Shown: positions 8,385 to 24,052 of the stretch, piece after piece
Layout of the letters: every line of letters starts with the position of its first letter
Position numbering within the stretch: the stretch's first letter is position 1
Source of the DNA: an uncultured Prevotella sp.
GTDB taxonomy: Bacteria; Bacteroidota; Bacteroidia; Bacteroidales; Bacteroidaceae
Direction of reading: 5' to 3'
DNA: 64,000 nucleotides
Assembly: GCA_905233165.1 (NCBI GenBank)
Contig: CAJODL010000005.1
Span: 1 to 64,000 of the forward strand
The notes under the pieces: model-generated
What the model saw: the letters and a program-made list of their open reading frames with translations, nothing else
Told to the model about the DNA's origin: nothing
Databases searched by the model: none
Translations under genes and position numbers: made by a program

Positions 8385-8415
8385 TTGTGAATGAAAAGAA
8401 ATCGTAGTATCTTTG
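8385..8415 (+). promoter_or_regulatory. Promoter for the heme cluster (TTG-N20-TATCTTTG)
   Basis: TTG 8385-8387 and TATCTTTG 8408-8415, inside the 5' part of the longest ORF. Confidence 0.55.
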
Positions 8416-8441
8416 CAGCCAAAATTGCGAAACCAGACTTT

Positions 8442-9779
8442 ATGCTGACACCAGATGTTATAAAAAAATACAATATACCTGTTCCACGATATACCAGTTA
8501 CCCGCCGGCAAACTATTTCAGAGATTTGTCTGAGGAAGAATACATCAGTGCAGTTCTTCGTTCAAACGATGCGAAAGACAGAAACCTGTCCTTCTATCTA
8601 CATATACCCTTCTGCTACCACTTGTGCCATTATTGCGCTTGTAACTCATACGCTATGCGAAGTAAGGTTGATGTGGATAACTACGTGAAGGCATTGCATA
8701 AGGAAATTGATTTGATAATTCCACTTTTACAGCCCGACAGGCAAGTTGCGCAGATACATTATGGAGGTGGGAGCCCCACAAGTCTTCAGCCAGCTGTCAT
8801 CAAGTCGCTCAACCAACACATTCTAAATATTTTTCCAAAGATTGACAGTCCTGAGGTGGCCATCGAGTGCCACCCCGGCTATCTGTCGCTCTCAGATTGG
8901 AAAGGACTTGTAGAAGCGGGCTTTTCCCGATTCAGTATTGGTGTTCAGGACTTTTACGAAAAAGTCTTGAAGACCGTCAACCGACGCCATTCCAAAGAGA
9001 GAATGGAAGACATCTTTGCCGTGCTGCGTGACGGAGGTGCACACATCAACCTGGATTTTCTTTATGGTCTGCCTTACCAGACAGCAGAGAGCTTTAGTCA
9101 CACCATAGAGCAGGCAATTCGTCTGCAGCCCGACCGGTTGGTGATGTTCAGCTATGCCCACGTACCCTGGCTGAAGAAACGACAGCTCATCTTGGAAAAG
9201 GCAGGACTGCCCACTGCCGAGGAGAAGGAACGGATGTTTAATGAGGCTGCTAAACTGCTTCTGGCAGCAGGCTACGTGAGAGTTGGTATGGATCATTTCG
9301 TACGTCCTGACGACGAGCTCTATACCGCATTGCAAGAAGGTCTTCTGCACAGGAATTTCCAAGGCTACTGTACCCGCAGAACGACAGCCCAGGTATATGC
9401 GCTAGGTGTGACAGGTATCACTCAACTGGAAACGGCTTACGCCCAAAATACGAAAGACATCGATGAATACATCCAAACAGTAAACAGCGGACATCTGCCT
9501 GTCAGGAAAGGTTATCTGTTAACCAGGGAAGAACAGTTGTCAAGGGAAGTCATCGACAGTCTGATGTGTAACTATGCCGTAACACTAACAGATAAGCAGC
9601 GGGCGGTGATGAATTATGACGAACAACGACTGGCGGAGATGCAGACCGACGGCATCATCACCATCGATGGTAACACTATAAGGATGGCACATGAGAGCAG
9701 TCCGTTTGTGAGAAATGTGGCAGCACTCCTCGATCCGCTGATGCAGCATACGACGAAAGCTTTCTCAAAACCCGTATAA
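8442..9779 (+). CDS. hemN: Oxygen-independent coproporphyrinogen III oxidase/dehydrogenase
   Basis: Radical-SAM CYHLCHYCACN motif, YGGGSPTSL, FSIGVQDFYEKVLKTVNR; start at MLTPDVIKKY after the promoter. Confidence 0.92.
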   Translation: MLTPDVIKKYNIPVPRYTSYPPANYFRDLSEEEYISAVLRSNDAKDRNLSFYLHIPFCYHLCHYCACNSYAMRSKVDVDNYVKALHKEIDLIIPLLQPDRQVAQIHYGGGSPTSLQPAVIKSLNQHILNIFPKIDSPEVAIECHPGYLSLSDWKGLVEAGFSRFSIGVQDFYEKVLKTVNRRHSKERMEDIFAVLRDGGAHINLDFLYGLPYQTAESFSHTIEQAIRLQPDRLVMFSYAHVPWLKKRQLILEKAGLPTAEEKERMFNEAAKLLLAAGYVRVGMDHFVRPDDELYTALQEGLLHRNFQGYCTRRTTAQVYALGVTGITQLETAYAQNTKDIDEYIQTVNSGHLPVRKGYLLTREEQLSREVIDSLMCNYAVTLTDKQRAVMNYDEQRLAEMQTDGIITIDGNTIRMAHESSPFVRNVAALLDPLMQHTTKAFSKPV

Positions 9780-9811: not shown

Positions 9812-11197
9812 ATGAAAACAGATATATTGATTATAGGAGCCGGCTTGACCGGTCTGACAACAGCCTACACTTTAGCACGTCGAGGACGTCAGGTGACAGT
9901 GTTGGAACAAATGGACAGAACCGGAGGACAGATACAGACACATACGGAGCAGGGATTTGTTTTTGAGAGTGGACCGAATACAGGTACCATATCCAACCCC
10001 GAAGTAGCAGAACTGATGGCAGACCTGGAGAAAACATCGGGTGGCAAATGCCGGATAGAGACTGCACCTGATGCCTCGAAGCGTCGTCTGATATGGAAAG
10101 GCAATCGGTTTTATGATCTTCCTTCAGGGCCTGTGAGTGCCTTGAGTACTCCGTTGTTCACGTTGGCAGACAAGTTCAGAATACTTGGAGAGCCTTGGCG
10201 CAAGAAAGGCACTAATCCTGACGAGTCAGTAGGATCTTTAGCACGTCGAAGACTGGGCAAGTCGTTTGTCGATTATGCCGTTGATCCTTTTCTGTCGGGT
10301 GTCTATGCCGGTAACCCCAATACGCTTATTACGCGCTATGCGCTTCCGAAGCTCTATCGTCTTGAACAGGATTACGGCAGTTTCATCCGTGGTTCGTTTG
10401 CCAAGATGAAAGAGCCGAAGAGCGACAGAGACCGTCTGGCTACAAAGAAAATATTCTCAGCGGTAGGTGGATTAGGACAGATTACCCATGCTATGGCCGA
10501 TTATCTGGGTACAGCCCTGCTGACTGGGGTTCGCAATGTCAGAATAATGCCGACGGAAGACGGATGGGAAGTCGCATTTATAAATAAGGCAGGCGAGCGG
10601 CAGATTATCGAATGCCATCAGGTTGTCACGACTTGTGGTTCCTATTGTTTGCCCGAGTTGCTTCCCTTTATTGATAACAGTAGCATGCGCCAACTGAACA
10701 ACCTGACCTATGCCCCTGTGGTAGAGATTAGCGTGGGAGTTCGTGATACCTTTGGGGGCGACTATCGTGCCTTTGGCGGGTTGATACCTTCGTGCGAGCA
10801 GCAGCCCGTGCTGGGTATTCTATTCCCCTCAGCATGCTTTACAGGCCGTGCGCCTGAAGGTGGTGCCTTGTTCTCCTATTTTATGGGGGGTGTCAGACAT
10901 GCCGAGCTGCTCGAGAAAAGCGATGATGAACTGACTGCCGTAGTGGAGCAGCTTTTCTATTCAATGCTGAAGTTTCCTAAGCAAGCAAAGCCTGACCTCA
11001 TCCGCATCTTCCGCCACCAACGGGCCATACCTCAGTATGAGATTACATCAGGTGAACGTTTTGATACCATCGAGCGATTGCAACGAAGCTATAGCGGTCT
11101 GACCATTGCGGGCAATCTTCGTGACGGTATAGGTATGGCTCATCGTATCAAGCAGGCTGTAGAAACAGCCGATAGGTGTTTAAATTTTAAAGTATAG
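9812..11197 (+). CDS. hemG: Protoporphyrinogen oxidase (FAD)
   Basis: ILIIGAGLTGLTTAYTLARRGRQVTVLEQ dinucleotide motif; cluster context. Confidence 0.88.
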   Translation: MKTDILIIGAGLTGLTTAYTLARRGRQVTVLEQMDRTGGQIQTHTEQGFVFESGPNTGTISNPEVAELMADLEKTSGGKCRIETAPDASKRRLIWKGNRFYDLPSGPVSALSTPLFTLADKFRILGEPWRKKGTNPDESVGSLARRRLGKSFVDYAVDPFLSGVYAGNPNTLITRYALPKLYRLEQDYGSFIRGSFAKMKEPKSDRDRLATKKIFSAVGGLGQITHAMADYLGTALLTGVRNVRIMPTEDGWEVAFINKAGERQIIECHQVVTTCGSYCLPELLPFIDNSSMRQLNNLTYAPVVEISVGVRDTFGGDYRAFGGLIPSCEQQPVLGILFPSACFTGRAPEGGALFSYFMGGVRHAELLEKSDDELTAVVEQLFYSMLKFPKQAKPDLIRIFRHQRAIPQYEITSGERFDTIERLQRSYSGLTIAGNLRDGIGMAHRIKQAVETADRCLNFKV

Positions 11198-11201
11198 AGA
11201 T

Positions 11202-12221
11202 ATGGAAAGTATTTTCCTGAACACATTACTTGGTCGGGAGTGTCATCGACCGCCTGTGTGGCTGATGCGACAGGCAGGTCGTGTACTGCCACGTTACCAG
11301 AAGTTGCGTGAGCAATACTCCTTTTCAGAACTCATCAATACGCCAGAGTTGGCAGCACAGGTAACACTACTGCCTGTAGAGGACCTGGGTGTGGATGCCT
11401 CCATTCTGTTCAGCGACATCCTAATGGTGCCGATGGCTATGGGTATGGAGATAGAATGGACAGAGCAGGGACCCAAGTTCCTGAATCCGCTGGCTACACA
11501 AAAGCGGCCTTCAAGCTGTCTGAAAGTGCAGCCGGAACTCCTCGACAATGTATATCGCGCCATCGACCTTGTAGTTGAACAGAGCGAAGTGCCCCTGATA
11601 GGATTCTGTGGGGCTCCGCTGACCACCCTCTGTTATATGCTACAAGGCATGAGCACCAAGCAGACCTTTCCTGAGGCCAAACGTTTCTTTTACGAAAACA
11701 AGGAAGAGACACGACGACTGATTGATGCCGTGACTGACATGTCGATAGAATATGCCATCAAGCAGGTAGAGCATGGCATCGATGCTTTCCAACTGTTCGA
11801 TAGTCATGCAGGACTCCTGCCTGCCGACATCTATGCAGAACTGTTTCTGCCTGCTATTTGCAGGATTACTGATGCTGTGCGCTCTATGGGCACCCCCTTG
11901 ATATTCTTCCCCAAAGGACTTGGTTGTGGACTGAAGCAGATTACACCAGATGTGTGTGACGTTGTTAGTATTGACTGGCAGACGTCGCTGACAGAAGCCC
12001 GACAGATGGTGCACCCTGAAGTAGGCCTACAGGGAAATATCGACCCACACCTGCTTTTTGCCTCGCATGAGGAGATTCAGCGGGTGATGGAAACCTACAA
12101 GCCATTCTTCCGCGAAAATCACAGGTGGGTGGTAAACCTTGGGCATGGGGTTCTTGCCGACACACCTTTTGAGAACGTGAAGTTCTTGATTAACTGGATT
12201 AAAGAAACAAACTGGAAATGA
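11202..12221 (+). CDS. hemE: Uroporphyrinogen decarboxylase
   Basis: PPVWLMRQAGRVLPRYQKLRE, GFCGAPLTTLCYM, LQGNIDPHLL. Confidence 0.95.
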   Translation: MESIFLNTLLGRECHRPPVWLMRQAGRVLPRYQKLREQYSFSELINTPELAAQVTLLPVEDLGVDASILFSDILMVPMAMGMEIEWTEQGPKFLNPLATQKRPSSCLKVQPELLDNVYRAIDLVVEQSEVPLIGFCGAPLTTLCYMLQGMSTKQTFPEAKRFFYENKEETRRLIDAVTDMSIEYAIKQVEHGIDAFQLFDSHAGLLPADIYAELFLPAICRITDAVRSMGTPLIFFPKGLGCGLKQITPDVCDVVSIDWQTSLTEARQMVHPEVGLQGNIDPHLLFASHEEIQRVMETYKPFFRENHRWVVNLGHGVLADTPFENVKFLINWIKETNWK

Positions 12222-13744
12222 TACAATATAAATCGATTAATCACCTCACCACCTCTTTGAAAGAACGAGAGGACTACTTCAGCAACATGAACCGCAATGA
12301 CGTCGGTCCATCAGTGCTGCTGCAGACCTGTAACCGCGTTGAACTCTATTACGGAGAAGGTGAGGTTCCCGATGAAGTGGCACGACATCTCTTCCGGGTG
12401 GTGTGCGGTCTGGAATCTGCCATCACTGGCGAACGGGCCGTACAAGGACAGGTAAAAGATGCTTATCTGGCAGCCCTTCAGAGTGGCGCAAAACTCTCTG
12501 CAGGACTGAATAAACTCTTCGAGTGCGCCCTGCAGATAGGTAAGCGTGTACGAAACCAGACGGAGATATCTCATGGAGCCGTCAGTCACAGTCTGGCTGT
12601 TATCGAAATCATTGAGCAACAACACATCAATCTTTCTAATGCACAAATCACCATTGTCGGGGTGAACAAACTGACAGAAGACATCATCAAGTTCCTGAAA
12701 AACAAAGGGGCAAAGGTAATAATGCTGGCCAATCGTACTGAAGAGAAAGCCAGACGGATGGCTGCTCCATACGGTATTGATGTACGGCAACTCGATGAGA
12801 AAAACGATTTCCTGCAGCATACCGACATCCTGATTAGCGCAACCTCTGCCGACCATGCTATTATCTTTAAGGAAGACTTGAATCCAAATCGCAAACTGCT
12901 TGCTATTGACCTTGCCTTCCCCCGCGATATCGACCCTCGTGTTACTGAAATGGAGCAGGTGACTCTCTACAACCTGCAGGATGTAGAACGGAAAGTACAG
13001 GCTAACATCGCCGTTAGGGAGGATGAAGTGCAGAAGGCGAAAATGATGATTGAAGAAGAGATAGGACTGCTACACGAAATCATGGAACGACGTAAGAAAC
13101 ACAATACTCTCCGCATTGTGGCACGTGGAAGCCGACTCTCGCAGCTACAGGTTAAGGAAGTGATGCAACGTCTGCCTGAGGTGCCCTACGAGTTGAAGGT
13201 GCAGGCATCGCTAGGCGATAAGAATCAAAACATCTCGCTGCTCAACGGCCAGGCACCTGATGACTTCTTTACTCGTGAACTCGATCAGGCCCTGCTAAAG
13301 GGTGAGGCCGATGTGGCCATCCACTCTGCCAAAGATTTGCCTGAACAGTTGAATGGCGGTCTGGAAGTCATCGCCCTTTATGAGGCATTCGATAAGACCG
13401 ATGCTCTTGTAAGTCGCGACAACCAGACACTGGAAACACTACCTGCAGGCAGTCGCATCGGAACCAGTTCACCCTTGCGCAAACAAGAACTGCTGGCTCA
13501 GCGCCCTGATTTGGAAGTCGTAGGTATTCGCGGCTGCATCGAAGACAGGGTTCAGCAAGTAAGGTCGGGACAGATTGATGCCGCCATTGTGGCCACGTGT
13601 GCCTTGAAACGTCTCGGCATGGAGAGTGAGATTGCTGAGATATTATCCTTTGCAACCCATCCCATGCAAGGCCGACTGGCAGTGACAGCAAGGAAAGGGC
13701 GCAACGATCTGAAAGCGATATTCTCGAAAGGAAGCATCCTGTGA
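12218..13744 (+). CDS. Glutamyl-tRNA reductase / hydroxymethylbilane synthase fusion (HMBS domain lacks the C-terminal cofactor-Cys domain)
   Basis: GluTR: LLQTCNRVELYYG, SAITGERAVQGQVKDAY, LLAIDLAFPRDIDPRV. HMBS: RIVARGSRLSQLQ, FTRELDQALLKGEADVAIHSAKDLP, GTSSPLRKQELL, IRGCIEDRV. Confidence 0.9.
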   Translation: MIQYKSINHLTTSLKEREDYFSNMNRNDVGPSVLLQTCNRVELYYGEGEVPDEVARHLFRVVCGLESAITGERAVQGQVKDAYLAALQSGAKLSAGLNKLFECALQIGKRVRNQTEISHGAVSHSLAVIEIIEQQHINLSNAQITIVGVNKLTEDIIKFLKNKGAKVIMLANRTEEKARRMAAPYGIDVRQLDEKNDFLQHTDILISATSADHAIIFKEDLNPNRKLLAIDLAFPRDIDPRVTEMEQVTLYNLQDVERKVQANIAVREDEVQKAKMMIEEEIGLLHEIMERRKKHNTLRIVARGSRLSQLQVKEVMQRLPEVPYELKVQASLGDKNQNISLLNGQAPDDFFTRELDQALLKGEADVAIHSAKDLPEQLNGGLEVIALYEAFDKTDALVSRDNQTLETLPAGSRIGTSSPLRKQELLAQRPDLEVVGIRGCIEDRVQQVRSGQIDAAIVATCALKRLGMESEIAEILSFATHPMQGRLAVTARKGRNDLKAIFSKGSIL

Positions 13745-14384: not shown

Positions 14385-15356
14385 ATGAAAAGATTTAGAC
14401 CCTATCGTTTAACACCGGAGATACGCGACAAGTATGCCGACGTATCCATCAATGTCAAAGACTTTATAAATCCTTATTTTGTAGTAGAAGGAGATGGCGT
14501 CAAGGAAGAGATTTCCACGATGCCGGGCATCTACCGCTTCTCCATCGACACGCTCGTAGAGGATGTCAAGGAGATATATGCACTTGGTATTGACAAAGTG
14601 CTGCTCTTCGGTGTCATTGATGACAACCAGAAGGATGAGCGCGGCTCGCTGGCCTACGCTGAAGATGCGCTGGTCTGCCGTGCTGTGAAGGCTATCAAGG
14701 CTGCCCAGCCAGAAGTGTGTGTTATCACCGATGTCTGCCTCTGCGAATATACCAGTCACGGACACTGTGGCCTGCTCTGCAACCACGATGTGGATAACGA
14801 CTCTACCCTGCCGCTACTTGCCGAGATGGCCTATGTTCATGCCAAAGCCGGTGCCGACTTCGTGGCTCCTTCGGCTATGATGGACGGACAGATTGAGGCG
14901 CTCGACAAGCGACTCCGCGAGGCTGGACTGCGTGATAAATGCAAGATATTGGCTTATTCCGCCAAGTATGCCTCAGCCTTCTACGGACCGTTCCGCGATG
15001 CAGCCGACTCAGCTCCTTCCTTCGGCGATCGCAAGACCTATCAGATGGACTACCGCACCCACGACCAGGGATTGGAGGAGATAGCTGCTGATATTGATGA
15101 AGGTGCCGACTGGACTATGGTAAAACCCGCCATGCCTTATCTCGATATGATTGCCCGTGGTGTGGAGCGTTTCCCGCAGACGCCGATGGTGGCCTATCAA
15201 GTGAGTGGTGAGTACTCAATGCTCAAGGCTGCTGCCAAACTCGGCTATCTCGACGAGCAGCGCGTAGTGTTCGAGAGTCTGATAGCCATCAAGCGTGCCG
15301 GTGCGCAGTATATCATCAGTTATTACGCTAAAGAGTACATGCAGCGATGGGCATGA
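14385..15356 (+). CDS. hemB: Delta-aminolevulinic acid dehydratase (porphobilinogen synthase)
   Basis: ITDVCLCEYTSHGHCGL, GADFVAPSAMMDGQI, MVKPAMPYLDMI. Confidence 0.96.
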   Translation: MKRFRPYRLTPEIRDKYADVSINVKDFINPYFVVEGDGVKEEISTMPGIYRFSIDTLVEDVKEIYALGIDKVLLFGVIDDNQKDERGSLAYAEDALVCRAVKAIKAAQPEVCVITDVCLCEYTSHGHCGLLCNHDVDNDSTLPLLAEMAYVHAKAGADFVAPSAMMDGQIEALDKRLREAGLRDKCKILAYSAKYASAFYGPFRDAADSAPSFGDRKTYQMDYRTHDQGLEEIAADIDEGADWTMVKPAMPYLDMIARGVERFPQTPMVAYQVSGEYSMLKAAAKLGYLDEQRVVFESLIAIKRAGAQYIISYYAKEYMQRWA

Positions 15357-15376: not shown

Positions 15377-16669
15377 ATGAAAATTGAAAAAATGATACAA
15401 CAGAGAATATTGTCTGAAAAAGCTTTTGAACGGGCACAGCAGGTGATACCCGGCGGGGTGAACAGTCCCGTTAGGGCACTCCGCAGCGTAGGCACCACAC
15501 CGCTCTTCGTGAAAGAGGCTAAAGGTGCTTATATCACTGATATCGATGACAACCACATCATCGACTTCTGCATGTCGTGGGGCGTATTCATCCTGGGTCA
15601 CAACAACGAGCGCGTCTCTCAGACGGCTATCGATGCCGTCAGTCGTGGCAGCAGTTATGGCATTCCCTGTGAGAACGAGACAATACTGGCTGAAAAAGTC
15701 CGCGAGGCCTTCCCCACGATGGAGCGTCTGCGCTTTGTCAACAGCGGCACCGAAGCAACCATGTCAGCCATCCGTGTGGCTCGCGGCTATACAGGACGTA
15801 ACATCCTCGTGAAGTTCGAAGGCAACTACCACGGTCATGCCGACCATCTATTGGTGGCAGCAGGCTCCGGCGTTGCCAATATCTCTAACGCCTCGTCGGC
15901 CGGTGTGCCCGATGGATTTGTGAAATATACAGTGGTGCTGCCTTATAACGACACCGAAGCCCTGCGCCAGTTCTTCAGCGAACATGGTCATGAGGTGGCA
16001 GCACTCATCATCGAGCCTGTGGCCTGCAATATGGGTGTGGTGGTGCCCACCGAAGACTTTCTGAAGGCTACCCGCGAGGTTACCGAACAGCATGGTGCCG
16101 TGCTCATCTTCGACGAGGTGATTACCGGCTTCCGTCTAGCTTTTGGCGGTGCCCAGCAGCGTTTTGGCATCACACCCGACATGACCACCGTTGGCAAGAT
16201 AGTCGGTGGCGGATTCCCTGCTGCAGCCTTTGGCGGTCGTGAGGACATTATGAAAGTGCTAGCCCCCGAGGGTCCCGTCTATCAGGCTGGTACGCTGAGC
16301 GGCAACCCCGTGGCTATGGCGGCAGGAATCGAGACGCTGACCCAGCTATCGCGAGCCGATTTCTATGAGACATTAGAGCGTAAGAGCAATGCATTTATTG
16401 CTCAACTCGAGCAGATTATCGCCGGCAAAGGCATCCAACTAAACTGTTGTGGCTCTATGTTCACGCTATTTTTCAACGAAAATCCTGTGCGCAATTTCAA
16501 GGACACACAACGCTCTGACCAACAGCGCTTTGCCCGATACTTCCGCAACATGCTCAGTCGTGGCATCTACGTCAGTCCTTCGCAGTTCGAGGGCAACTTC
16601 ATCTCAGAGTCTCACACACCAGAGATACTCGACTACGTCTTGGAGAGTATAGCACAGAGTATAGAATAA
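15377..16669 (+). CDS. hemL: Glutamate-1-semialdehyde 2,1-aminomutase
   Basis: IPGGVNSPVRAL, FVNSGTEATMSAIRVARGYTGR, LIFDEVITGFRLAFGGAQ. Confidence 0.95.
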   Translation: MKIEKMIQQRILSEKAFERAQQVIPGGVNSPVRALRSVGTTPLFVKEAKGAYITDIDDNHIIDFCMSWGVFILGHNNERVSQTAIDAVSRGSSYGIPCENETILAEKVREAFPTMERLRFVNSGTEATMSAIRVARGYTGRNILVKFEGNYHGHADHLLVAAGSGVANISNASSAGVPDGFVKYTVVLPYNDTEALRQFFSEHGHEVAALIIEPVACNMGVVVPTEDFLKATREVTEQHGAVLIFDEVITGFRLAFGGAQQRFGITPDMTTVGKIVGGGFPAAAFGGREDIMKVLAPEGPVYQAGTLSGNPVAMAAGIETLTQLSRADFYETLERKSNAFIAQLEQIIAGKGIQLNCCGSMFTLFFNENPVRNFKDTQRSDQQRFARYFRNMLSRGIYVSPSQFEGNFISESHTPEILDYVLESIAQSIE

Positions 16670-20526: not shown

Positions 20527-22224
20527 CTATTCGTATTTCTTTCCGAAGCGTGCCTGAACTACATTGACAACATAGTCGCCAAGTCTCTCCATTTCGCTTA
20601 CCATATCTGTATATAATGTACCCACGCTATAGTCATACTCCTGCTCATTGACAGACTTTATATTTTCTGCTTTCAGTTTCTTACGTAAGGTGTTGATGTT
20701 GTTTTCTATGCGGAAGGTCTCACGAATCTTGTGGTCTCTCCTATGTCCATGCATTACAACATTCATTTGTGTAAGGGCTTCTACACAGAGTCTCATCAAT
20801 GCCTGCAGTTGTTCTGTCTGATGCTGAGTGAATTTCTTATTGGTGTCATTTTTTCGCTCCACCATTCTTGCCAATTTATAGCAAGCATCGCCAATAGATT
20901 CCAGTTCACTGATTTCACGCATCATCTGGCGAATCTTATGCTTTGTCTCACCACTAAGATGATCGTCGCCAACCTGCTCTAAGTAGTTTGCTATTTCTAT
21001 CTCTATTCTGTCTGTTGCGTCTTCCTCAAACTCTATCTTGCTAAAGAGTTCTGCAAACTTCTTTTTGTCTGTTTCTGCAAACAATAGGCACACCATATTG
21101 AACATCTCTCCTACTCTCTCAGCAAAGGCAGTAGTCTCTTTCTGTGCCTGAAGGACAGCAATTTCTGGCGTCTGCACCAAACCAGACTGAATATACTGCA
21201 GGCGGAATTCTCCCTTCTTTTCTTCCTGCTTTTCTGGCAGCAGGTAGCAGACAGCATGCTCCATCTGCTTAACAAGTCCGAGAAGAATAGCAGTATTTAT
21301 GACATTAAAGCAGGTGTGGAACATAGCCAGCACAACAGGCAGTCGCATTGTCTGTCCTCCTGCTGATGGATTATAGCCTACAAAGCCACACACCATATCC
21401 ACAAAAGGATAGAATACTATCAGCACCCACACCACTCCGAAGACGTTAAACAACAAGTGTGCAAGGGCTGCCCTACGAGCTTGGGTATTAGCACCCAAGG
21501 CTACAAGGTTGGCTGTTGCTGTAGTACCTATATTCTCACCCATCACCAATGCTATGCCAAGATATATGGGCAAGACACCTGTGGAACAAAGCAGAATGGT
21601 GATTGCCATAACTGCTGCTGATGATTGCACTATGCAGGTTATCAGAGTTCCTATAGCCAAGAAGGCCAGAATGGTAAGATGACTCGATGTGTCGAATGAT
21701 GCAAAGAATGAGATTACTGCATCATTGTGTTCCAAATCCATCGCTTTTCCTGTAGTACTGAGCATCACCAGTGACAGGAACATAAAGGCCGTACCAAACA
21801 AAAAGTCACCAATATAGTTATGACTCCTCTTATATATCAGGACCATTCCGACTAAGAAAGACGGATAAACGATATTTGTCAGGTCAACACTATATCCTAA
21901 CGACATAATCCATGCTGTCAGAGTGGTTCCAATATTCGCACCCATGATAACTGATATGGCTTGTGCCAATGTCAGCAGTCCTGCTGAAACGAATGATACA
22001 GTCATCACTGTAGTTGCTGACGAAGACTGTACAGCACAGGTGACGAGCATACCTGTCAGCATACCAGTAAAGCGATTGGTTGTCATCTTGGCAAGAATAT
22101 GCCTCAACCCAGGACCTGCCATCTTCTGAAGGGCTTCACTCATCATACGCATTCCGTAGATGAGAAGACTCAAAGAGCCCAACAGTTGAAAAGCAATAAA
22201 AGTGTAATTTTGATTTGTTTCCAT
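20527..22224 (-). CDS. Na/Pi cotransporter family protein with PhoU-like C-terminal region
   Basis: QSSSATTVMTVSFVSAGLL and QSSAAVMAITILL repeats; start at METNQNYTF. Confidence 0.9.
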   Translation of the reverse strand: METNQNYTFIAFQLLGSLSLLIYGMRMMSEALQKMAGPGLRHILAKMTTNRFTGMLTGMLVTCAVQSSSATTVMTVSFVSAGLLTLAQAISVIMGANIGTTLTAWIMSLGYSVDLTNIVYPSFLVGMVLIYKRSHNYIGDFLFGTAFMFLSLVMLSTTGKAMDLEHNDAVISFFASFDTSSHLTILAFLAIGTLITCIVQSSAAVMAITILLCSTGVLPIYLGIALVMGENIGTTATANLVALGANTQARRAALAHLLFNVFGVVWVLIVFYPFVDMVCGFVGYNPSAGGQTMRLPVVLAMFHTCFNVINTAILLGLVKQMEHAVCYLLPEKQEEKKGEFRLQYIQSGLVQTPEIAVLQAQKETTAFAERVGEMFNMVCLLFAETDKKKFAELFSKIEFEEDATDRIEIEIANYLEQVGDDHLSGETKHKIRQMMREISELESIGDACYKLARMVERKNDTNKKFTQHQTEQLQALMRLCVEALTQMNVVMHGHRRDHKIRETFRIENNINTLRKKLKAENIKSVNEQEYDYSVGTLYTDMVSEMERLGDYVVNVVQARFGKKYE

Positions 22225-22366
22225 ATTATACTGAATTCTGGGCACAAAGGTACGAGTCCTTTCTCTATTGGCCAAAGAATTCGTGTTACAATATGGTTAC
22301 ATTTTCAAGTTAAGAGTTAAGAATTAAGAGTTAATAATTTTCAATGGTCAATGCTCAATGTTCAAT

Positions 22367-24052
22367 TTACGAAAATCTCGCCTGTACTACATTTACTACA
22401 TAGTCGCCAAGTCTCTCCATTTCGTTTACCATATCTACATATAGAGTACCCAGGCTGTAGCTGTATTCCTGTTTGTCAACAGACATCGCATTCTCATCCC
22501 TCAGTTTCCTACGCTTCTCATTGATTTTGTTCTCTATGCGATAAGTATCGTGGATATCATGGTCTCTTCTGTGTCCACACATTACTACATTCATCTGTGC
22601 AAGGCTCTGAGTACATAGTGCCATCATAGCCTGTAGCTGTTCTGTCTGATGCTGAGTGAGTTTCTTGTCTGTCTCATGTTTGCGTTCTATTATCTGAGCC
22701 AACTTGTAGCAGGCATCACCAATAGATTCCAGCTCACCAATCTCACGCAGCATCATTCGAATCTTATGCTTTGTATCGCCACTGAGATGGTCATTGCTGA
22801 CATGCTCCAAGTACTGGGCTATCTCCAGTTCTGTCTTGTCTGTAGCCTCCTCTTCCTGTTCTATCTTTTTGAAGAGTTCTGCAAACTGCTTATCACTATT
22901 TTCTATAAACAGTTGGCACACCATATTAAACATCTCTCCTACCCTGTGAGCAAAGGCAGCCGTTTCTTTCTGTGCCTGGAGAACTGCAATTTCTGGTGTC
23001 TGCACCAAGCCTGACTGTATATATTGCAGGCGGAAAGCTCCATCTTTTGTTGTCTGCTTTTCAGGTATTAGCCAGCATACAATGCGCTCCATCTGCTTTA
23101 TGGGTCCTATGAGGACAGCAGTATTGGCAACATTAAAACAAGTGTGGAACATAGCCAGCACAACAGGCAGACGTGATGCCTGACCACCCGCTGCAGGATC
23201 ATAGCCTACCAAGCTGCATACCATATCAACAAAGGGATAGAACACTATGAGCACCCACATAACTCCAAAGACATTAAACAGCAAGTGTGCAAGGGCAGCC
23301 CGACGAGCCTGGGTATTTGCACCCAAAGCAGCAAGATTGGCAGTTGCTGTAGTGCCTATATTCTCACCCATCACCAATGCTATGCCAAGATATATGGGCA
23401 AGACACCTGTGGAACAAAGCAGAATGGTGATTGCCATAACTGCTGCAGAAGACTGCACTATACAGGTTATCAGGGTTCCTATTCCCAAGAATATCAGTAT
23501 TGTGAGATAACTTGATGTATCGAAGGAGGCAAAGAATGATATCACCTCTTGGTTATGCCCCAAATCCATTGCCTTGCCGGCATTGCTCAGCAACACCAAT
23601 GACAGGAACAGGAAGGCTGTGCCAAACAGGAAGTCACCAAAGATATGATGACGTTTTATATAGATAAGAATTATTCCCAACAGGAAACAGGGATATATAA
23701 CAGTTGTCAAATCGAGGCTGTATCCCAATGACATAATCCAAGCAGTCAGAGTGGTTCCGATGTTGGCACCCATGATAACAGAGATGGCCTGCAGCAATGT
23801 CAGCAGTCCTGCTGATACGAAAGAAACAGTCATAACAGTAGTAGCCGACGATGACTGTACAGCACAGGTGACGAGCATACCAGTCAGCATACCAGTAAAG
23901 CGATTGGTAGTCATTCTGGCAAGAACATGTCTCAATCCAGGGCCAGCCATCTTCTGAAGGGCCTCACTCATTACTCGCATACCATAGATGAGAAGACTCA
24001 AAGAGCCCATCATCTGTAATGCTATCAACACATAGTTATGATCTGTTTCCAT
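22367..24052 (-). CDS. Na/Pi cotransporter family protein (tandem paralog)
   Basis: Near-identical to the 20527-22224 product over most of its length. Confidence 0.9.
   Translation of the reverse strand: METDHNYVLIALQMMGSLSLLIYGMRVMSEALQKMAGPGLRHVLARMTTNRFTGMLTGMLVTCAVQSSSATTVMTVSFVSAGLLTLLQAISVIMGANIGTTLTAWIMSLGYSLDLTTVIYPCFLLGIILIYIKRHHIFGDFLFGTAFLFLSLVLLSNAGKAMDLGHNQEVISFFASFDTSSYLTILIFLGIGTLITCIVQSSAAVMAITILLCSTGVLPIYLGIALVMGENIGTTATANLAALGANTQARRAALAHLLFNVFGVMWVLIVFYPFVDMVCSLVGYDPAAGGQASRLPVVLAMFHTCFNVANTAVLIGPIKQMERIVCWLIPEKQTTKDGAFRLQYIQSGLVQTPEIAVLQAQKETAAFAHRVGEMFNMVCQLFIENSDKQFAELFKKIEQEEEATDKTELEIAQYLEHVSNDHLSGDTKHKIRMMLREIGELESIGDACYKLAQIIERKHETDKKLTQHQTEQLQAMMALCTQSLAQMNVVMCGHRRDHDIHDTYRIENKINEKRRKLRDENAMSVDKQEYSYSLGTLYVDMVNEMERLGDYVVNVVQARFS

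Follow-up and report, generated by a model that had tools for sequence, protein, structure and literature searches.

A GluTR-fused HMBS lacking domain 3 in a Prevotella hem operon belongs to a widespread two-domain class predicted to be active

Hydroxymethylbilane synthase (HMBS; EC 2.5.1.61), also called porphobilinogen deaminase, is the textbook example of a self-primed enzyme: it assembles a covalent primer of its own, which hangs on an invariant cysteine of domain 3. In humans, HMBS deficiency leads to acute intermittent porphyria; among the patient variants, one amounts to exactly the loss of domain 3. The hem operon studied here, located in a 64,000-nucleotide stretch of DNA from an uncultured Prevotella sp. 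(the window), encodes a GluTR-HMBS fusion in which the HMBS part stops once domain 2 and the final elements of domain 1 are complete, raising the question of whether such a protein can work and, if so, how its pyrrole chain is held. The cofactor cysteine has been described as invariant (PMC3949521), the growing chain in human HMBS is bound exclusively via Cys261 (PMC7907807), and a human HMBS that stops short of domain 3 is unstable, with almost no activity (PMC10773753).

The genes of the operon are arranged in the order hemN, hemG, hemE, GluTR-HMBS fusion, hemD, hemB, and hemL (Table 1), and the hemE stop and the fusion start overlap by 4 nt (ATGA). The original prediction placed hemD close behind the fusion stop, which holds, at a distance of 22 nt instead of the 20 nt given. 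Three Pfam domains were found in the fusion (GlutR_N, Shikimate_DH, and Porphobil_deam), the last matching residues 298-499 over profile positions 1-206 of 207 (E = 1e-51). The fusion also exceeded the cut-offs of TIGR01035 for GluTR (215.8 versus 209.55) and of TIGR00212 for hemC (176.9 versus 164), the latter covering the HMBS part at model positions 1-212 of 293 only. Cys38 of the GluTR half was invariant in our alignment A3, and the GluTR dimerisation domain PF00745 had no match in the fusion protein in the Pfam search. GluTR measures about 300 aa in these operons (L040-L096), so the first enzyme of the pathway is shortened as well. The lack of PF00745 and the conserved domain-2 cysteine discussed below had both been overlooked in the original prediction. 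The operon extends to protoporphyrinogen oxidase, yet no ferrochelatase of the HemH (PF00762), CbiK (PF06180), or CobN (PF02514) families was found in this Prevotella genome.

Table 1. Coordinates in the window of the hem genes and of the parts of the fusion.
Feature	Position	Strand	Remarks
hemN	8391..9779	+	TIGR00538
hemG-type protoporphyrinogen oxidase	9812..11197	+	TIGR00562
hemE	11202..12221	+	TIGR01464
GluTR-HMBS fusion, 508 aa	12218..13744	+	ATG start, ORF read directly
GluTR half (residues 1-293) of fusion	12218..13096	+	catalytic Cys38 (QTCNR), NADPH domain, without PF00745
HMBS half (residues 294-508) of fusion	13097..13744	+	domains 1 and 2 only, domain 3 absent
Cys440 codon (RGC), aligned with E. 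coli Asn151	13535..13537	+	second active-site-region cysteine
Cys461 codon (TGT), aligned with E. coli Ala172	13598..13600	+	candidate re-sited pyrrole-primer anchor
hemD, uroporphyrinogen-III synthase, 204 aa	13767..14381	+	PF02602
hemB	14385..15356	+	PF00490, NF006762
hemL	15377..16669	+	TIGR00713

Domain 3 (PF03900) was not matched by Pfam in the fusion protein, nor anywhere in this genome (3.02 Mb, 99.9% complete) in a six-frame search reading through stops, as judged with a profile that may miss a highly divergent domain 3. In the same kind of search, PF01379 was found once in the whole genome, at the fusion gene. A second full-length hemC and a frameshifted domain 3, the two contrary cases named in the original prediction, were thus looked for genome-wide and ruled out. 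The absence of domain 3 and of its LEGGC-type cysteine from the HMBS half, as first read from the DNA, was therefore confirmed by Pfam, by the coverage of TIGR00212, and by the PF03900 search of the genome that had been proposed at that time, which returned zero matches.

The fusion is not an isolated case, and its membership in a whole two-domain class had not been seen in the original prediction. Among 251 genomes of the family, HMBS was detected in nine, all without domain 3, and PF03900 was absent from all 251. At the level of the order, 71 of 394 genomes carried HMBS, most of them the three-domain form and 11 the short one; PF03900 was absent from the short-class genomes. When 85,462 species genomes were scanned with the short-HMBS alignment as a query, 80 loci were recovered, the majority of them short, in Bacteroidales, Margulisiibacteriota, Elusimicrobiota, Spirochaetota, Omnitrophota, Auribacterota, Kiritimatiellota, Verrucomicrobiota, Planctomycetota, and Chlamydiota, and PF03900 was absent from 33/33 further carrier genomes (locus L049 being truncated at the edge of its contig). 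We assign the two-domain class to Bacteroidales, Omnitrophota, Elusimicrobiota, Spirochaetota, Kiritimatiellota, and Chlamydiota. In the last phylum, PF01379 was present in 102 of 117 genomes, and 101 of these 102 encoded a two-domain HMBS. A single Chlamydiota genome of the 117 (G732) had a recognisable domain 3, weak and divergent, which fell below the PF03900 cut-off.

In a maximum-likelihood tree, one branch with a support of 100/100 parted 81 short from 47 three-domain HMBS, and the window protein grouped with the other domain-3-less proteins on the short side of this split. The two-domain HMBS is a deep-branching lineage. Domain loss in the short branch would be the simpler reading, which the tree, with its root not fixed, does not prove. 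Within the genus, HMBS was found in this genome only, out of 17 sampled, and the gene groups with its closest relative L058 as well as with genomes from another family, a pattern suggestive of horizontal transfer or of repeated losses.

The surroundings of the short HMBS vary. Outside Chlamydiota, the commonest layout is a single HMBS-SUMT-HemD chain accompanied by a roughly 300-aa GluTR, HemB, and HemL. SUMT begins about five residues past the end of HMBS in these chains, leaving no room for domain 3; in the short-form loci, the position of domain 3 is taken by SUMT or by a stop within a few residues. These operons (L040-L129; Bacteroidales, Omnitrophota, and others) share with that of the window the two-domain HMBS, in most cases a Cys at the E. 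coli A172 position, and the short GluTR, HemB, and HemL alongside. In contrast, the window's operon has no SUMT; in its sublineage, HMBS is fused to GluTR, HemD is separate, and hemE, hemG, and hemN lie upstream. At three loci (L059, L068, and L043), GluTR, HMBS, and HemD are separate genes. The Chlamydiota frames fall into two size ranges, about 203-285 aa and about 420-476 aa; of the long ones, L116 and L132 were examined and proved to be fusions of HMBS with HemD.

Selection on the fusion was analyzed by comparison with L058, whose HMBS half is 88% identical to that of the window. The dN/dS values were 0.044 for the HMBS half and 0.096 for the GluTR half, figures that are rough because dS was near or above 1. 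The HMBS half is thus under strong purifying selection and is not decaying. AlphaFold, run with a 62-sequence alignment, predicted an HMBS fold for this half (pLDDT 96.3, pTM 0.91); the model of the whole fusion (pTM 0.43) was set aside. The best 32 PDB matches of the HMBS-half model were all HMBS, headed by the E. coli enzyme (1pda, TMq 0.88) and including that of Arabidopsis (4htg, 0.93); HMBS of the short kind was absent among the matched PDB sequences, all of which were at least 310 aa long.

In E. coli numbering, R11, S13, Q19, D46, F62, S81, K83, D84, S128, S129, R132, R149, and R155 were kept in 81/81 short forms, as were R176 and Q198 in every sequence that extends that far. The window protein shares the domain 1-2 fold, the catalytic residues, and the pathway position with three-domain HMBS (E. 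coli HemC, human HMBS; TIGR00212), and differs from them in lacking domain 3, Cys242/Cys261, and R232, and in having a changed R131, a changed K55/K59 loop, and a Cys at A172. K55 and K59 are altered in short forms generally, and R131 was conserved in 46/46 three-domain versus 8/81 short forms; Chlamydiota, unlike this 81-sequence set, mostly keep it. R131 is a classical cofactor contact, and the E. coli mutants R131L and R132L no longer bind the cofactor (PMC3945110).

These results argue for a predicted active two-domain HMBS without the classical anchor, a reading based on sequence and modelling to which we give a probability of about 0.82, and the short HMBS of the window very probably works. 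Porphobilinogen would be deaminated by the Asp equivalent to D84 and polymerised in the cleft between domains 1 and 2 as in the classical enzyme. The class probably has no covalent dipyrromethane cofactor or, in the lineage of the window, has its anchor moved to another domain. The view that the chain must be held otherwise than by a LEGGC cysteine is supported.

Less certainly, the primer may be bound as a thioether to Cys461 in domain 2, which would replace the domain-3 cysteine. The cofactor-loop Cys of domain 3 was kept in 47/47 three-domain HMBS, and the position of Cys461 was a Cys in 63/80 short versus 3/46 three-domain forms (Fisher p = 4e-16, relatedness being ignored). In the Rickettsiales-type three-domain HMBS of L123, L133, and L136, the domain-3 Cys coexists with a Cys at A172. 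Cys461 is invariant in the Bacteroidales relatives of the window among short forms with coverage, while the neighbouring residue varies, and in an E. coli simulation A172 touches the pyrrole chain when it is four, five, or six rings long (PMC3945110). Taken together, these two observations mark out Cys461 as a good candidate for the relocated anchor, its presumed cleft-facing position resting on that published simulation. For the window's protein we consider this role a tentative proposal, its chances being somewhat short of even.

For the class as a whole, Cys461 as the anchor was rejected: the site holds A or S in Chlamydiota, I in two Spirochaetota, and V in one Omnitrophota clade. Cys440, found in only 21/81 short forms, all close relatives, was rejected as the anchor. 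The Omnitrophota forms with Val172 (L099, L101, L105, L106, and L112) have a Cys at the E. coli Y164 position in 5/5 cases, which the Cys172 short forms lack, and a Cys at the A75 position occurs in 39/50 Chlamydiota sequences (L139-L187). C164, C75, and also C77 in Spirochaetota were set aside as clade-specific and, from their aligned positions, probably off-cleft.

The alternative to a Cys461 anchor concerns this step only and keeps the same active two-domain enzyme: the chain would be held non-covalently by the arginine-rich cleft, with a first porphobilinogen or a loosely bound dipyrromethane as the primer, and Cys461 would merely be a packing residue. A mechanism free of a covalent cofactor would be compatible with the lineages without Cys461 and with two Chlamydiota forms (L127 and L132) whose domains 1-2 are devoid of cysteine. 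No adjacent replacement nucleophile is conserved in Chlamydiota, the exchange of A, C, V, and I is also expected of a buried packing residue, and a non-covalent mode would suit the whole class. However, the invariance of the site in Bacteroidales next to a varying neighbour speaks for Cys461, as does the tree, on which the Cys/non-Cys label among short forms requires only about five changes. We regard non-covalent binding as a serious possibility, just below an even chance. Either the class has two anchoring solutions, or it can do without an anchor and Cys461 serves for packing.

A partner protein (GluTR, HemD, SUMT, or a small protein) could also supply the anchor, as the original prediction had considered and as the very frequent fusion or adjacency of HMBS to another pathway enzyme might suggest. 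However, the partner differs among loci (GluTR, SUMT-HemD, HemD, or none), PF03900 is absent from carrier genomes, in SUMT and HemD the conservation of Cys stays at or below 30% in every alignment column, and the only conserved Cys of GluTR is that enzyme's own catalytic residue. An anchoring Cys on SUMT or HemD was rejected, and a partner-borne anchor in general is very unlikely. It is also highly improbable that the protein is active with a product or role other than HMB synthesis; the missing anchor and the changes around the cleft (R131, K55, and K59) would fit, but HemD is fused or downstream in most loci, the operons also hold GluTR, HemB, HemL, and often HemE, HemG, and HemN, and this genome has no other HMBS. 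Finally, a degenerate, inactive HMBS half, once envisaged in view of the missing cofactor domain and compatible with the human enzyme's need for it and with the apparent lack of a ferrochelatase, is scarcely credible against a dN/dS of 0.04, catalytic residues invariant in 81 sequences, the surrounding hem operons, and a lineage conserved across many phyla whose carrier genomes have no domain 3 and no accompanying three-domain HMBS.

The HMBS of the window is a widely distributed variant of a known enzyme. An NCBIfam model, NF002202 (PRK01066, 241 positions), presumably describes the short HMBS of Chlamydiota, an attribution that the standalone chlamydial frames of 203-285 aa fit, so short HMBS is already annotated in databases. 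The window protein scored 168.9 bits against this model, below the curated cut-off of 251. The chlamydial proteins resemble it in having two domains, in lacking PF03900, and in falling on the same side of the tree split, but they have no Cys at A172, mostly keep R131, and were not seen fused to GluTR. In the open-access literature, which leaves most subscription papers outside its scope, no discussion of a two-domain, cofactor-free, or GluTR-fused HMBS was found.

That a natural lineage exists with neither domain 3 nor an accompanying three-domain HMBS suggests that domains 1 and 2 are all that the core HMBS reaction needs. If this is true, the supposedly invariant anchor cysteine is dispensable in nature, with Chlamydiota having no replacement cysteine at the corresponding site. 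A naturally shortened enzyme in many gut and environmental bacteria and in nearly all Chlamydiota makes the textbook requirement for an anchor testable, and offers a small system for telling apart what the anchor, the primer, and ring counting each contribute. Nearly all HMBS-bearing Chlamydiota carry a version of the enzyme that is mechanistically unexamined.

Elsewhere in the window, positions 20527-24052 of the minus strand encode two adjoining, highly similar large membrane proteins (582 and 561 aa) that apparently arose by tandem duplication and that we take to resemble Na/Pi cotransporters.
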